Assembly: GCF_000159235.2 (NCBI RefSeq)
Contig: NZ_ACGK02000004.1
Location: 1 to 64,000, forward strand
Direction: 5' to 3'
DNA: 64,000 nt
DNA from: Fannyhessea vaginae DSM 15829
GTDB taxonomy: Bacteria > Actinomycetota > Coriobacteriia > Coriobacteriales > Atopobiaceae
The notes below the pieces were generated by a model. It had not been told where the DNA came from, ran no database searches, and saw nothing but the letters and a program-made list of their open reading frames with translations. Position 1 is the stretch's first letter. Each line of letters starts with the position of its first letter. Positions 3,175-24,644 of the stretch are shown piece after piece. The position numbers were made by a program, and so were the translations under genes.

Positions 3175-3597
3175 CTATTCCTCAATAGTTATGCCTTGCT
3201 TATCCAAATAGGCAAGCCACCTGTTCTGTGTGTCAGTGGAAATAGCATGCTCCATAAGACAAGCTTCGTTATCGGCAATTTCGCTTGTTACACCTAAATC
3301 CTGCACCAAAAATGAACGAATCATACGATGGCAACGCCAAATATGAGCAGCATATTCTTTACCTGTAGTGGTTAGCTGAATGCGACCATAACGATTCTGT
3401 TCAACGTAGCCGTTTTCTTTGAGAACATTTAGTGCTTTATTAACGCTTGCTTTTGAAACTTCAAGCTGATCTGCAACGTCTTTTGATCGAATCCCATCAA
3501 AAGCATTTTCTTCCTGCATGATGCGGTATATAGTTTCTAAATAATCTTCGCTCGCCATGGTTAAGCGATGCCACGCGTTTTCTGTCGTGTTGGACAT
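3175..3597 (-). CDS. DtxR/MntR-family metal-dependent repressor
   Basis: A 140-residue regulator with an N-terminal winged helix (EDYLETIYRI, then SKDVADQLEVSKASVNKAL) and a metal-binding dimerisation domain; there is no C-terminal SH3-like domain, so it has the short MntR build. The metal ligands look mixed. The first helix has aspartate as in Bacillus MntR (EDY), where iron-type DtxR has methionine, but the last helix reads EACLMEH like the DtxR form with a cysteine. The RCHRM histidine is also present. It should repress manganese or iron uptake genes when metal is plentiful; no such genes are in the window. The start follows AGGGAG. Confidence 0.88.
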   Translation of the reverse strand: MSNTTENAWHRLTMASEDYLETIYRIMQEENAFDGIRSKDVADQLEVSKASVNKALNVLKENGYVEQNRYGRIQLTTTGKEYAAHIWRCHRMIRSFLVQDLGVTSEIADNEACLMEHAISTDTQNRWLAYLDKQGITIEE

Positions 3598-3756
3598 AGT
3601 CTCTCTCCCTATGCAATGAATCCCCATCCAATATTGCACACTGTAATACGTCTTTAGGACATGTACCACATATAGTTATTTTATTTCATTGTAATTAAAG
3701 ATCTGCGTCAGCACACATTTTAATCGCTTAAGGCGTGAATTGTATACATAAAATGC

Positions 3757-17186: not shown

Positions 17187-17550
17187 GACAGGACTCCTTC
17201 TTGTTTGCCTGGTTTCCGATCAGGCTTGGATGTCATCTTCATCTGCTTTAGCACATGAAGATAAAAAGCCTTATCAGTTTAGCAGAGTTTTGTATGTTTG
17301 TCGCCAAAATTAATTTTTAGCGCGATGAGCACGCTAAATCACATAGTTTCACCACGTTTTAGGCGCGCGTGTCGGTGCGAGAAGCACATCGATGATACCG
17401 ATACCTGTATGAGGTTTCTTAAGACAGCCTCACATGGTAAAATGAGCTCGATTTTAGACAGTAGATCCTCTTACTGCAAATCATGAGTGTACGCGCATAT
17501 AACGTGCGCAAGTTTTATTACAACACGATGTGTCGCATAAAGGAGTTCAC
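17187..17550. other. Divergent intergenic region between rpmE and panC
   Basis: This 364-bp gap must hold leftward promoters for rpmE and rightward ones for panC. A plus-strand -10-like TATAAC lies at 17498-17503 inside a small inverted repeat GCGCA / TGCGC (17493-17509); its -35 is poor. No riboswitch consensus or open frame of interest was recognised. Confidence 0.4.
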
Positions 17551-19391: not shown

Positions 19392-22289
19392 CTAGAGCAA
19401 CTCACCATAATGGTGAATGTACAGTTTTTTGCAAAGCGTTGTGAGCACCATGTACAACAAGACACATATCGCTAAATACGCAAAGTAGATTAAAGGTAGA
19501 GGGCATAATCCCAAAACAGCTCCTAACGGCGAAAACGGTATCAGCGTTAAGAGAGCAATAGCGCACGAAGTGCACAAAGTAAGTTGCCACGATGCATTAC
19601 TTTGAATAAACGGTATCTTTGACGTACGAATCATATGAATAACCAGCGTCTGGCTCCACATAGACTCAACAAACCAGCCCGTTTGGAAAAGCATGCAATA
19701 TGCGGCTCTTACATTTGTAAGTTGCGCGCCGCTATATACGCTTGGTAAATCCCACCATACAATACCGCCTGATACGCAAAGCGGGCATATCACTAAAAAC
19801 ATAACGGCAAACGTAAGCACATCAAAGATTGAGCTTATAGGTCCAAAACAGATCATGAATTTACCGATGGATGACGCATTCCACGCACGTGGACGCTCGA
19901 TCATCTCGCGATCTACCCCATCCCAAGGAATAGCTGTGCAGGAAAGATCATAAATAAGATTCAGCAAAATGAGCTGGATACTTTGCATAGGCAAAAACGG
20001 AAGCATTGCAGAAGAAATAAGTACCGAAAGCACATTACCAAAGTTAGAAGATGCCGTCATCTTTATATACTTCACCATATTGGCAAACGTTTTTCTACCG
20101 CCAATAATACCTTGCTCTAAAACGCCTAGATCCTTTTGTAGCAGAATGATATCAGCCGACTCTTTTGCCACGTCAACCGCACTATCAACCGATATTCCAA
20201 TATCGGCTTGTTTCATAGCAGCCGCATCGTTAATGCCGTCACCCATATACCCAACAGTGTGACCACATTCGCGCAAAACACGCACGATACGAGCCTTTTG
20301 TTCGGGCGTAAGCTTTGCAAAAACAGTAGTTGTTTGTGCGCGTTCACAAAGCTGTGTATCGCTTAAATCTTCAATATCGCTGCCTTCAAGAATGGAGCTC
20401 ACTTCCAAACCTACGGCTTTGCAAATAGTACGTGTAACCTGCGTGTTGTCGCCCGTCAAAATCTTGGTAGTTACACCATGGCTACGAAGAGCTGCAAGTG
20501 TAGAAGCAACGCTTTCTTTTGGTGGATCAAGAAATGCAAGGATTCCTAAAAAGCACATCGAACATTCGTCACTAACGTTAAACGCGCCAACAGGTGAAGG
20601 ATTGTCTTTTACCGCAAGCGCAAGGACTCTAAATCCGCGGTCATTAAGGCAAGATACCATGTGTAAAATCTTGGTTTTTACTTCCGCTGTAAGATCTTTT
20701 ACAGCGTCTTCGTCTCTAACCTGCGTGCAAATTGAAAGCATTTCTTCAACAGCACCTTTAGTAACCATTACCGTAGAGCCTTCGGAGCCCCTTACAACCA
20801 CAGACAAGCGGCGACGCTTAAAGTCAAATGGTATCTCATCAAGCTTGGTGTACGCTTCTGACAGATCCTCAAGCTCTTTATCAGCGGATTCTACTTCCTC
20901 GGTTTTCTTAATAATGGCTGCATCCATAAGATTTTTGTATCCCGTTTGGAAATAGCTATTAAGATATGCACTTCTTAATACATGTAAGTCATCTTCGCCG
21001 TGAATGTTTAAGTGATATTCAAGTACAACATCGTTTTGAGTAAGCGTTCCTGTTTTATCGGTACAAAGAATATCCATAGCACCAAAATTTTGAATAGAAT
21101 TAAGATTCTTTACAATGGTCTGCTTTTTACTCATTAAAACGGCGCCTTTGGCTAAGCACGTGGTAACAATCATAGGAAGCATTTCTGGCGTTAAACCTAC
21201 CGCAACCGAAATTGCAAACAGCGATGCAGCCACCCAGTCGCCTTTGGTAAAACCGTTGATCATCAATACAATGGGCACCATAACCAGCATAAATCTAATA
21301 AGCACCCAACTTACCGCGTTAACTCCTTTTGCAAAGCTTGTCTGAGGATCTTTTTCGTCCAGCGCACGAGTCATGCTTCCAAAAAGCGTATGAATGCCGG
21401 TAGACACCACAATTGCCCAACCGCTTCCGGATATAACATTTGTCCCCATAAAAGCAATATTGACGTAATCGGTTACACTCGCTTGGTGCGCTTGTGTTGC
21501 AGCAATTTTTTCTGCAGGTTCGCTTTCACCCGTTAAAGATGCCTGATTAACAAACAAATCGTGAGTTTCGATGAGGCGAACATCAGCAGGTACCATATCA
21601 CCCGTGCTTAAATAGATAAGATCTCCTACAACTAATTCGTCCAAAGGTATTTCACGCACAGCAGTCTCGCGGTGCACAAGTTGCTCGTTTGTAGGCTGGT
21701 CTGTATCGCCTTTACGAAGAACAGAACAGGTAGTTTTAATCATCACCATAAGCTGATGAACAGCATTATTGCTCTTAAGCTCTTGAATAAAGCGCAGTAA
21801 TCCCGAAATGGTTACCATAACAACAATAATAACAACTGTTGTGTAGCTGCAATCATCGGGTGTTTGGTCAAACATTGAAAGCAGCGGGAATACAACATCG
21901 TTAAGTCCAGATATAATTGCCAGCACGAACAATATAGCGGTAAAGGGATTGATAAACGCTTCTATAAGTTGATGGACTGGGCTTTTTTCGCGTTTATGCA
22001 TAATGTAATTGGTGCCGTAACGCGCACGATGATTGATGACCTCGCGCTCAGTTAAACCTTCTTGCGAGCTTTGTACATAGCCCAACACCGCAGTTTTACT
22101 GTGTGTAGCCGCAAATGTAAGACGCTCTTCGTGCGAAACGTCTACCGTATTTTTCTGAGATAATCCACTACCATCAAAACGCTTACGTTTTGAAATAATG
22201 GCACGAGTATCTTGAGATGAAAATGTTTGTGATGACGATAAGGTCTTACGGTTATTAATGCGTTTGACAGTGCTCCAGATGTTCTTCAT
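19392..22289 (-). CDS. mgtA: MgtA/MgtB-type magnesium-transporting P-type ATPase
   Basis: A 965-residue P3B-type ATPase for magnesium import. It shows TGES (actuator domain), the phosphorylation motif DKTGTLTQND, KGAVEEML for nucleotide binding and GDGINDAAAMKQADIG. About ten membrane helices fit, including GLTPEMLPMIVTTCLAKGA, the MgtA-specific form of helix M4. The N terminus has about 60 extra polar residues. The start ATG follows AGGAG at nine bases and lies inside the 3' end of a small Cys/His-rich gene, so translation of the two may be coupled. Expression is probably controlled through that leader. Confidence 0.94.
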   Translation of the reverse strand: MKNIWSTVKRINNRKTLSSSQTFSSQDTRAIISKRKRFDGSGLSQKNTVDVSHEERLTFAATHSKTAVLGYVQSSQEGLTEREVINHRARYGTNYIMHKREKSPVHQLIEAFINPFTAILFVLAIISGLNDVVFPLLSMFDQTPDDCSYTTVVIIVVMVTISGLLRFIQELKSNNAVHQLMVMIKTTCSVLRKGDTDQPTNEQLVHRETAVREIPLDELVVGDLIYLSTGDMVPADVRLIETHDLFVNQASLTGESEPAEKIAATQAHQASVTDYVNIAFMGTNVISGSGWAIVVSTGIHTLFGSMTRALDEKDPQTSFAKGVNAVSWVLIRFMLVMVPIVLMINGFTKGDWVAASLFAISVAVGLTPEMLPMIVTTCLAKGAVLMSKKQTIVKNLNSIQNFGAMDILCTDKTGTLTQNDVVLEYHLNIHGEDDLHVLRSAYLNSYFQTGYKNLMDAAIIKKTEEVESADKELEDLSEAYTKLDEIPFDFKRRRLSVVVRGSEGSTVMVTKGAVEEMLSICTQVRDEDAVKDLTAEVKTKILHMVSCLNDRGFRVLALAVKDNPSPVGAFNVSDECSMCFLGILAFLDPPKESVASTLAALRSHGVTTKILTGDNTQVTRTICKAVGLEVSSILEGSDIEDLSDTQLCERAQTTTVFAKLTPEQKARIVRVLRECGHTVGYMGDGINDAAAMKQADIGISVDSAVDVAKESADIILLQKDLGVLEQGIIGGRKTFANMVKYIKMTASSNFGNVLSVLISSAMLPFLPMQSIQLILLNLIYDLSCTAIPWDGVDREMIERPRAWNASSIGKFMICFGPISSIFDVLTFAVMFLVICPLCVSGGIVWWDLPSVYSGAQLTNVRAAYCMLFQTGWFVESMWSQTLVIHMIRTSKIPFIQSNASWQLTLCTSCAIALLTLIPFSPLGAVLGLCPLPLIYFAYLAICVLLYMVLTTLCKKLYIHHYGELL

Positions 22290-22437
22290 AAGCATCAACT
22301 CCTGTGCCACATGTATATGTGACCATCAGGCAAAGATGAGATATATGCACTTCTTTGCAACTATTTATACGTCTACTTCGACCGCAAGAGCAACTATGAC
22401 TTTTGCTCTTACTGTGACCTGTACTGTGTGCGTCCAT
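22255..22437 (-). CDS. 60-residue Cys/His-rich mini-protein overlapping mgtA
   Basis: A small gene preceded by a strong AAGGAGG eight bases before its ATG. Its 60 residues include 6 cysteines and 8 histidines, in the groups SHSCSCGRSRR, SCKEVHISHLC and HLEHCQTH, which suggests metal binding. It ends 35 bases inside mgtA in another frame, so ribosomes finishing it could restart at mgtA. I do not recognise the family. It could be a metal-sensing leader peptide, a small regulator of MgtA, or a metallochaperone. The strong ribosome site is the main support that it is translated. Confidence 0.6.
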   Translation of the reverse strand: MDAHSTGHSKSKSHSCSCGRSRRINSCKEVHISHLCLMVTYTCGTGVDAYEEHLEHCQTH

Positions 22438-22506
22438 ACATCCCACCTCCTTATAGTTGATGTATAAATTAAGTTTGTTGCAGGCGCTAAACACCCACCA
22501 AAGCAA

Positions 22507-22545
22507 GGCTTGCACGGGTAAACATAAGCCGAACAACACGTGCAA
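22507..22545 (-). promoter_or_regulatory. Structured RNA leader upstream of the mgtA mini-gene
   Basis: On the minus strand TTGCACG (22545-22539) can pair with CGTGCAA (22516-22510). Inside that loop GGCTT (22530-22526) can pair with AAGCC (22511-22507), just past the first stem. The two pairings interleave, as in an H-type pseudoknot, or they may be alternatives in a switch. It is about 70 bases upstream of the ribosome site of the mini-gene. No match to the M-box consensus was seen. Confidence 0.35.
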
Positions 22546-22603
22546 AACAAACTCACACCCGTTATACCTTACTTAAAAATAATTTGCAAGGTTGAATTTT
22601 AAT

Positions 22604-23212
22604 TTATAAAGCCACGCACAAAGATGCTTGCTCGGGGGCTAAGGTACGCTCTGTTGCATCGCTAAGCGTTACTACAGCTCTACCCCATACGTCTACTCCA
22701 GCAAGGGTAGCTGTATATGGAGCACTTCCGTCTTTGGGATGAACTGCAATTGCATGTCCCATATGATCAACATGATCAAAATATTCCGACGCTACAAAAG
22801 CAAGCGGGCCTGCAACAGCTGGTGTCTTTGAAAGCGCATGCTGCCATGCGGTAATACGATCCATAAGGCAAGATTGCAAAATGGTGTCAAAATTAACAGG
22901 AAGCGCCTGAACGGTGGGTGTATCACCTTGGCAAATAATGTCGATATCAACAAACACGCCACCTTCATCACATCCACCGTGATGCACAATATCAAAGGTT
23001 AAGCGCTCGTAATATAACTCAACTTCAACACGATATGGCCAACAAATGTGTGCCTGATGATTAAGCGTATTGGCGCATGCGTCATAAATGCCTAACGAAC
23101 AAATCCAAGGCAAGCCACTTATGAGATGCTGTGGAACCTGTGGCCGTATACGTACGTGCGCAATACAAAACGGCTCATGAGAAGTCCTATCTTTAGTGTT
23201 ATCCCAGCTCAT
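22604..23212 (-). CDS. Biotin-protein-ligase-like protein lacking the biotinyl loop
   Basis: A 202-residue protein that aligns by eye to the second half of BirA-type biotin protein ligases: RIRPQVPQHLISGLPWICSLGIYDAC matches the segment after the active loop, CWPYRVEVE matches the KWPNDV region, and GRAVVTLSDATERTLAPEQASL matches the C-terminal domain. The N-terminal GRGRxG loop that binds biotinyl-AMP is missing, and the KWPND lysine is replaced by cysteine. It follows the folP-folK stop by one base and probably shares its transcript. It may be a decayed ligase or a new role; the assignment is tentative. Confidence 0.5.
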   Translation of the reverse strand: MSWDNTKDRTSHEPFCIAHVRIRPQVPQHLISGLPWICSLGIYDACANTLNHQAHICWPYRVEVELYYERLTFDIVHHGGCDEGGVFVDIDIICQGDTPTVQALPVNFDTILQSCLMDRITAWQHALSKTPAVAGPLAFVASEYFDHVDHMGHAIAVHPKDGSAPYTATLAGVDVWGRAVVTLSDATERTLAPEQASLCVAL

Positions 23213-23213
23213 A

Positions 23214-24644
23214 CTACTCCCAGTCAACGGTGCCCAAGTCTGCTATAACATGGCCAACTCTTTGTTCGGAAGGCAAAACCTCAATTCCTGCGTGAGAAAG
23301 AAAGCGAGCTGGATCGTGCATTAAATCTTCCATAGGCACAAGCACAAAATCACGCTCGGCAAGGCGCGGATGAGGCAAAGTGAGCTTTTGCCCTGCGTGT
23401 GTTTCGCCTTCAACATAGCACAAGTCGCAATCAATAGTACGCGGCTGCGGCGTGCGCGACTTAGCTGAACGTGTGCGTTTAAGTTCTTTTTCAATTGCCA
23501 TAAGCTCATCAAGCAAGCAAAGCGGTGCAAGCTCGGTGCGAACTTCAACCACCGCGTTTGCAACTTTTGTTGCAATGCCGTACGCTGGCTCGGTTTCGTA
23601 GACATGACTTACCTGCACAACGCCTGTAAGTGGGATCTCGTTGATTCGTTTTACCGCCAAGGTAAGATTTGCCATATAATCGCCCGTATTTGAACCAAGC
23701 GCAATAAATGCTTGACGCGCATCGGGTTGCGAACAAGACCAGTAACCGTTGATAACTTCTGCTGCCATTTTAACGTTGTGGACGCGCACGATTCGAGAAC
23801 CAGCAGCAATTGCAGCAATGCATATACCCATCGTTGCACTATCGCGACGATTAGCAACTGCCACCGAAGATAGCGCTCCTACAAATCTTTTACGAGAAAC
23901 GGCAGTTAAGACAGGGTATCCCATAGAAACAAGCTTGTGCATAGCGCGTTGAATAATTACATTTTCGTTGGCGTCTTTATCAAAGCCCGGTCCTGGATCT
24001 ATGCAAATTCTGTTGTGATTAACACCTGCACGCATAAGAAGGCGCGCTTGATCTCCTAGAAATCCCATAATTGAGCGCATAATGGGGCCTTCGTCAGGAA
24101 GCGTAAAACGGCGCGAACTTTGAGGAACAATACGTTCACGTACGGGACGTGTGCTATCGAGTTGAACGGATTTTCGCATGGGCTGGTTGCTAAATTTTTC
24201 CCAATGCATAATAATGCAGCCGCAATCGGTTTGAGCAGCTACTTTAATCATTTCGGGATCCGAAAAGCCCGTAACATCGTTGATAATAGAAGCACCCAAA
24301 CGAACGCACATTTTTGCTACGGACGCATGACGTGTATCAATAGAAATTACAGTTTGGGGCGCTTGCTCTAAGATTCCTCGAATAACCGGCACCACACGTT
24401 GTGCTTCTTCTTCGGCACTTACAGGCGTATGTCCAGGCCGCGTTGACTCTCCCCCAACGTCGATAATGTCTGCACCTTCGTCGAGCATGCGCAATGCGTG
24501 AGCAATGGCTTTTGTTGCGTCAAGATTTTCTCCACCGTCTGAAAAAGAATCAGGCGTGACGTTTAATACACCCATAATGCGAGGACGTGATAGTGAAATA
24601 TCATGCTGTCCGCAATGCCAAACGGAATAATCTTGACGTAGCAT
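23214..24644 (-). CDS. folP: Fusion: dihydropteroate synthase and HPPK
   Basis: A 476-residue bifunctional folate enzyme. The first 310 or so residues are dihydropteroate synthase with GVLNVTPDSFSDGG, GGESTRPG, IINDVTGF, DPGPGF and SRKRFVG. The rest is hydroxymethyl-dihydropterin pyrophosphokinase with ALGSNTGD, ETEPAYG, PRTIDCDL and LPHPRLAERDFVL. The synthase has MHW instead of the usual MHM and an insertion of about 20 residues after it. FolB, the aldolase usually between these domains, is absent here. The start follows GGAGG at eight bases. folE is upstream by 44 bases. Confidence 0.93.
   Translation of the reverse strand: MLRQDYSVWHCGQHDISLSRPRIMGVLNVTPDSFSDGGENLDATKAIAHALRMLDEGADIIDVGGESTRPGHTPVSAEEEAQRVVPVIRGILEQAPQTVISIDTRHASVAKMCVRLGASIINDVTGFSDPEMIKVAAQTDCGCIIMHWEKFSNQPMRKSVQLDSTRPVRERIVPQSSRRFTLPDEGPIMRSIMGFLGDQARLLMRAGVNHNRICIDPGPGFDKDANENVIIQRAMHKLVSMGYPVLTAVSRKRFVGALSSVAVANRRDSATMGICIAAIAAGSRIVRVHNVKMAAEVINGYWSCSQPDARQAFIALGSNTGDYMANLTLAVKRINEIPLTGVVQVSHVYETEPAYGIATKVANAVVEVRTELAPLCLLDELMAIEKELKRTRSAKSRTPQPRTIDCDLCYVEGETHAGQKLTLPHPRLAERDFVLVPMEDLMHDPARFLSHAGIEVLPSEQRVGHVIADLGTVDWE

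Follow-up and report, generated by a model that had tools for sequence, protein, structure and literature searches.

Organization of the mgtA locus

The window, a 64,000-nucleotide stretch of Fannyhessea vaginae DSM 15829 (contig NZ_ACGK02000004.1), encodes on its minus strand the magnesium-translocating P-type ATPase MgtA, which scores 1084.8 bits against TIGR01524 (cut-off 610.75). The original prediction of a short frame ahead of this gene, with 60 codons led by AAGGAGG, 6 Cys, 8 His and a 35-base overlap with mgtA, was confirmed on the minus strand. The frame begins MDAHSTGHS and starts 148 nt upstream of the mgtA ATG (22289, the best mgtA start). The closest genome found is that of Coriobacteriales bacterium DNF00809 (hereafter L032), in which MgtA is 95% and the mini-protein 85% identical. 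The features of the locus are as follows:

22437-22255, minus strand: leader frame (mini-gene), 60 codons, ATG at 22437, stop ending at 22255, 6 Cys and 8 His
22452-22446, minus strand: Shine-Dalgarno (SD) sequence AAGGAGG of the mini-gene, preceding the ATG at 22437
19392..22289, minus strand: mgtA, magnesium-translocating P-type ATPase (TIGR01524 and PRK15122, both above cut-off)
22299..22303, minus strand: SD sequence AGGAG of mgtA, within the mini-gene
22584..22589, minus strand: putative -35 element TTGCAA, assigned by eye, 17 nt before the -10; TTGTAA in L032
22561..22566, minus strand: putative -10 element TATAAC, assigned by eye, identical in L032
22453..22465, minus strand: element A, ATACATCAACTAT, able to pair with the mgtA SD region or the mini-gene start, identical in L032
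22360..22425, minus strand: Ser-AGT/His segment, codons 5-26, with AGT at 5, 9, 13, 15, 21 and 26 and CGA at 20
22327..22351, minus strand: inner stretch, codons 29-37, predicted partner of the mini-gene SD and AUG

A consensus promoter scan upstream of the mini-gene returned no match, because the -10 element TATAAC lacks the final T. For the frame preceding mgtA at 22604-23227 (minus strand), searches of Pfam and NCBIfam gave nothing at cut-off. That no known M-box is recognizable in the window is borne out by the Rfam search upstream of mgtA, which found neither an M-box nor another leader, with two sub-threshold snoRNA matches in 22200-22650; no M-box was found upstream of the L032 mgtA either. 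A known riboswitch in the window leader was rejected, as no covariance model matched at gathering score. The only Rfam match in the window at that score is an L31-Coriobacteria ribosomal protein leader (17194-17226, minus strand, 38.1 bits).

After L032, the next-best relatives of the window MgtA are about 60-65% identical and belong to Clostridia and a few Coriobacteriia. The gene is patchily distributed, being found in 4 of 138 genomes of the family at E <= 1e-120 and in 112 of 396 genomes of the class at E <= 1e-150. One Coriobacteriia genome carries a tandem pair of mgtA-like genes (G370:C2:319396-322047 and 322247-325027). In L032, upstream of the leader (3400-3660), the end of the preceding gene appears duplicated around a run of N, perhaps an assembly gap.

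Predicted folding of the leader RNA

The interleaved pairings proposed originally, TTGCACG (22545-22539) with CGTGCAA (22516-22510) and GGCTT (22530-22526) with AAGCC (22511-22507), are both present and, since two bases are common to both, mutually exclusive. They do not exceed chance, because folding of the 5' part on its own (22545-22430) is no more stable than that of shuffled sequences (z -0.29; 69/200 shuffles as good); as the key switch they were therefore rejected. Folding of the complete leader (22545-22280) is moderately more stable than that of its shuffles (z -2.28; 4/200 as good). Its strongest pairing, unnamed in the original prediction, joins the mini-gene SD and AUG to the frame's own codons 29-37 (-24.3 kcal/mol against a shuffled mean of -14.4; 0/300 as good), and in L032 this pairing is likewise matched by none of 300 shuffles. 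The pairing sequences are identical in the two genomes, so there is no covariation.

The mgtA SD is predicted to be unpaired with a probability of 0.015 in the window (2/100 shuffles as low) and 0.090 in L032 (6/100). A fixed SD interval gives 0.51 for the window, an interval that misses most of AGGAG. Folding predicts that, in the free RNA, both the start of the mini-gene and the SD of mgtA are buried. Element A is predicted to pair with the mgtA SD region at a mean of 0.77 in the window and 0.74 in L032; its duplex with the SD does not exceed chance in L032 (equalled by 60/300 shuffles), and in the window a stretch other than element A gives the best 5' duplex with the SD.

With a ribosome modelled at codon 30 or 38 of the mini-gene, the predicted openness of the mgtA SD rises from 0.02 to 0.26 or 0.46 in the window and from 0.09 to 0.39 or 0.71 in L032, while a ribosome at codon 5, 10 or 20 is predicted to have no effect. 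The opening weakens with a shorter modelled 5' end (0.09, ribosome at codon 31). The originally suggested coupling of the mini-gene to mgtA thus gains a pairing of the RNA able to bring it about, as predicted from folding.

Between the window and L032 the mini-gene has 4 silent and 7 replacing changes; codons 13-41 hold none at all, silent ones included (17.7 silent sites), against an mgtA dS of 0.247. At the mgtA silent rate (117/556) the chance of this is about 0.016, for a stretch picked after the substitutions had been seen. The unchanged silent sites point to a constraint on the RNA.

Leader frames upstream of mgtA in other genomes

Upstream regions were read at 78 mgtA loci, at loci L112-L141 and in 60 further Coriobacteriia regions. 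Short SD-led frames recur there, with such starts as MDSDGSP, MESGSKCSPEPDG, MDAGSSCGAG, METQCNNSSDPDRP and MEEGSSKV, and further MSDGSHAREN, MSEGSSHSHSRR, MSDSHSRR, MEGSHSRKT and others; a frame with an SD score >= 6 within 330 nt is listed in 56 of the 60 further Coriobacteriia loci. When every leader frame was required to have an SD score >= 7, 10-70 codons and a start 60-290 nt upstream of mgtA, one was present at 76 of 128 dereplicated mgtA loci, against a mean of 1.15 (range 0-3) in 20 shuffles, and the other 52 loci lack a strong-SD frame by this fixed rule. Genes other than mgtA satisfy it in 3 of 161 cases (7/165 raw, four of which were mgtA leaders that had escaped the filter). Among 197 genomes searched with a pattern for the leader, two matched, in each case at an mgtA leader.

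The second residue is D, S or E in 60 of the 76 frames, and the starts are Ser-rich. The window frame shares this composition (MDAHSTGHSKSKSHS) and the strong SD at the usual place (AAGGAGG, 148 nt, within 60-290 nt). It departs from the usual length of about 18-45 codons ending before mgtA, as it has 60 codons and overlaps the gene; the leader frames of L001 (55 codons) and L007 (53 codons) likewise overlap mgtA. The window mini-gene appears to belong, as a diverged case, to a set of mgtA leader frames that occurs widely and is marked by one recurrent serine codon.

Sequestration of the mgtA SD was compared across the loci. Outside Coriobacteriia, the SD pairs with an upstream stretch that co-varies with it in sequence (CUUGCCUC with GAGGUAAG, CUGUACUUCC with GGAGGUGCAG, UCUUACGUCU with AGGAGGUAAGA). 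At 41 such loci, the duplex of the SD with its own sequestor averages -13.20 kcal/mol against -11.28 for permuted partners, and none of 2000 permutations was as good; for Coriobacteriia as a group, the sequestration is not significant (129/2000 as good). This permutation comparison includes seven hand-added loci with a weaker SD. At 29 of 34 non-Coriobacteriia loci and 26 of 42 Coriobacteriia loci, the SD is buried more deeply than when its upstream sequence is shuffled. With a ribosome modelled at codon 28, opening of the SD exceeds 0.2 at 9 of 31 non-Coriobacteriia loci, and closing occurs at none; the corresponding counts in Coriobacteriia are 3/39 and 2/39. Ribosome masking over all leaders revealed no common sign of control. 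In a consensus alignment of nine clostridial leaders, the only structure is a start hairpin of 7 pairs, one of which differs on both sides.

Serine AGT codons in the leader frames

Serine accounts for 22% of leader codons 2-12 in Coriobacteriia and 21% elsewhere, compared with 8% in mgtA. Among these Ser codons AGT is strongly favoured, with 54/101 against 15/450 in mgtA for Coriobacteriia (Fisher 7e-33) and 44/77 against 140/795 elsewhere (3e-13). These counts have starts set by hand for L030, L032, L044, L048, L122, L149, L183 and L192 and loci L026, L073 and L185 dropped; an earlier count, with only L030, L032 and L183 set by hand and none dropped, gave 52/96 against 15/482 and 42/73 against 143/822. 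In the first codons of other genes, AGT makes up 2/63 and 22/104 of Ser codons. CGA for Arg is also favoured in the leaders (19/36 and 7/21, against 4-5% in mgtA).

Over leader nucleotides 3-36, AGT triplets fall in frames 0/1/2 at 54/0/2 in Coriobacteriia and 44/1/0 elsewhere. With 98 in frame and 3 out, the leader frames are evidently read, and as the triplets are locked to the frame yet not to a position (their place varies by whole codons), they act as codons. In the window frame, AGT provides 6 of 9 Ser codons, against 23/177 in six neighbouring genes (binomial 2.8e-4); its distribution by frame there is 6/0/2, with two out-of-frame sites. Computation thus shows that the window frame fits the mgtA leader set of Coriobacteriia and Firmicutes in where it lies, in its SD, in the composition of its start and in its in-frame AGT, and that such frames are read as codons. 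The homologue originally sought upstream of mgtA in relatives is accordingly found in position and codon signature; in sequence it is confined to close kin.

The leader frames occur both with and without a known riboswitch. Scanning of 81 sources (L009 and L117 being one contig) revealed an M-box (RF00380) ahead of both leader frame and mgtA in 23, with L122 the single case among 39 Coriobacteriia sources. The M-box is absent from the window and L032. The AGT share is alike in leaders with a riboswitch upstream (22 leaders, 30/51) and in those for which none was found (48 leaders, 61/116).

These observations favour a reading in which the mini-gene is an MgtL-like leader frame acting in cis on mgtA, where the passage of ribosomes matters and not the free peptide; this is probably correct, with appreciable room for doubt. 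Plain translational coupling, in which frame and RNA together would keep mgtA at a constant level and sense nothing, would account for the overlap of the two genes, the buried SD and the lack of a riboswitch in the window. It is nevertheless unlikely, as the Ser-AGT signature in many unrelated leaders and the frequent M-box upstream suggest a sensing role. Less likely again, the AGT-rich start could be an RNA element (a binding site or an unstructured patch) whose reading is incidental. Other A/T-ending codons are indeed generally raised in the leaders of GC-rich Coriobacteriia, and given the general rise of A-ending codons there, the bias in that group is partly compositional. However, 98 of 101 AGT triplets lie in frame 0, their position shifts by whole codons, and AT-rich genomes are enriched for AGT and not for TCA or TCT.

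The mini-gene product

In contrast to the cis-acting leader frame favoured above, the original prediction took the Cys/His-rich mini-protein to be a sensor of a metal or of the redox state. Across the six known mini-protein sequences, each of the 6 Cys is invariant, as are 6 of the 8 His, and the nonsynonymous rate between the window and L032 (dN 0.053) lies below the mgtA dS of 0.247. A metal- or redox-binding mini-protein acting in trans or on the nascent chain is still very improbable, and the sensor claim found no support: silent positions have stayed unchanged in the same stretch of codons, Cys forms 5% (Coriobacteriia) or 3% (elsewhere) of leader codons 2-12, so that Cys richness is not common to mgtA leader frames, and searches of Pfam, NCBIfam and PDB with the peptide gave no match. 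Neither a known metal-binding domain nor a confident fold was found, the predicted fold having a mean pLDDT of 45.8 (from six near-identical alignment rows, itself weak evidence).

A conserved protein family was also rejected, as sequence homologues are confined to close kin. The database proteins that match the mini-protein (5/5 hits) come from close kin, with 60 residues each and 82-97% identity. A protein-level search of 138 family genomes gave 20 matches at E <= 0.1, of which only G001 is strong (3.6e-31; next 0.0021), and a DNA-level search of 396 class genomes gave 170 matches at E <= 1, again with G001 as the only strong one (3.7e-130; next 0.0012). No convincing sequence homologue beyond close relatives was found in these two genome sets.

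Comparison with known leaders

In enterics, mgtA is known to be controlled through a leader peptide, and translational attenuation of the ermC type is a drug-linked system in which a hidden SD becomes accessible according to where a ribosome stands on the leader. The mini-gene resembles the latter in that the SD would be opened by the position of a ribosome on the leader frame; it differs in that no drug is involved here and any stall site is hypothetical. Like enteric MgtL, it is a short frame led by an SD and lies ahead of mgtA (in E. coli, mgtL begins 194 nt upstream of that gene). In PMC11282234, the EPDP motif of MgtL is described as causing ribosome drop-off at low Mg2+ and thereby, via Rho, bringing about mgtA transcription; some clostridial leaders of the present set contain runs of D/E and P (SPEPDG, SSDPDRP) close to this motif. 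The window frame, in contrast, contains no early acidic/proline motif of the EPDP type, has 60 codons, overlaps mgtA and is rich in Ser-AGT, a codon absent from E. coli mgtL. Without EPDP it is MgtL-like at most and is not classed as a member. The level of action differs as well, since MgtL works by Rho-dependent termination according to the same paper, whereas the predicted target in the window is the mgtA SD.

An M-box of Mycobacterium tuberculosis that controls a small upstream frame, as presented in PMC12810186, is similar in combining a magnesium locus, a small frame and SD sequestration. There, however, the gene that follows is pe20, uORF2 encodes a peptide described as mycobacterial, and the riboswitch does the sensing. 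Searches of open full-text literature yielded no description of mgtA leaders of the present sort outside enterics (subscription papers lay mostly outside this scope). Of the new kind of metal-responsive leader originally proposed, the novelty holds insofar as the leader frame is absent from Rfam, Pfam and NCBIfam; an isolated new kind it is not, since its layout resembles that of enteric MgtL.

Possible mechanism of the leader

Codons 29-37 would hold the start of the mini-gene in the free RNA, and upstream sequence would hold the mgtA SD, which a ribosome in the distal half of the mini-gene is predicted to open. Low Mg2+ might change the progress or retention of ribosomes over the early Ser-AGT/His segment, and this progress might set how often mgtA opens. 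We infer a Mg2+ response of the window leader and leave its sign of control unfixed, because, contrary to MgtL, a ribosome passing through the entire frame is predicted from folding to open mgtA.

Ser-AGU codons are wobble-read by tRNA-Ser. More tentatively, the leaders might constitute a codon-level Mg2+ sensor in Coriobacteriia and Firmicutes, in which early Ser-AGU codons would set a Mg2+-dependent progress or stability of the ribosome, alone or behind an M-box; the window frame would then have grown to 60 codons, its RNA locking both the leader start and the mgtA SD. If this is true, ribosome-read magnesium sensing would be general across distant Gram-positive groups, sometimes behind an M-box, and one synonymous codon choice, AGU, would be under selection.

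Where an M-box and a leader frame occur together (L122, L029, L031, L033, L062 and 18 others), two possible layers of control are stacked before mgtA. At one locus (L046:3609-3709), leader frame and mgtA-type ATPase lie behind a NiCo riboswitch, in the place where relatives have an M-box, and the pump may move another metal.
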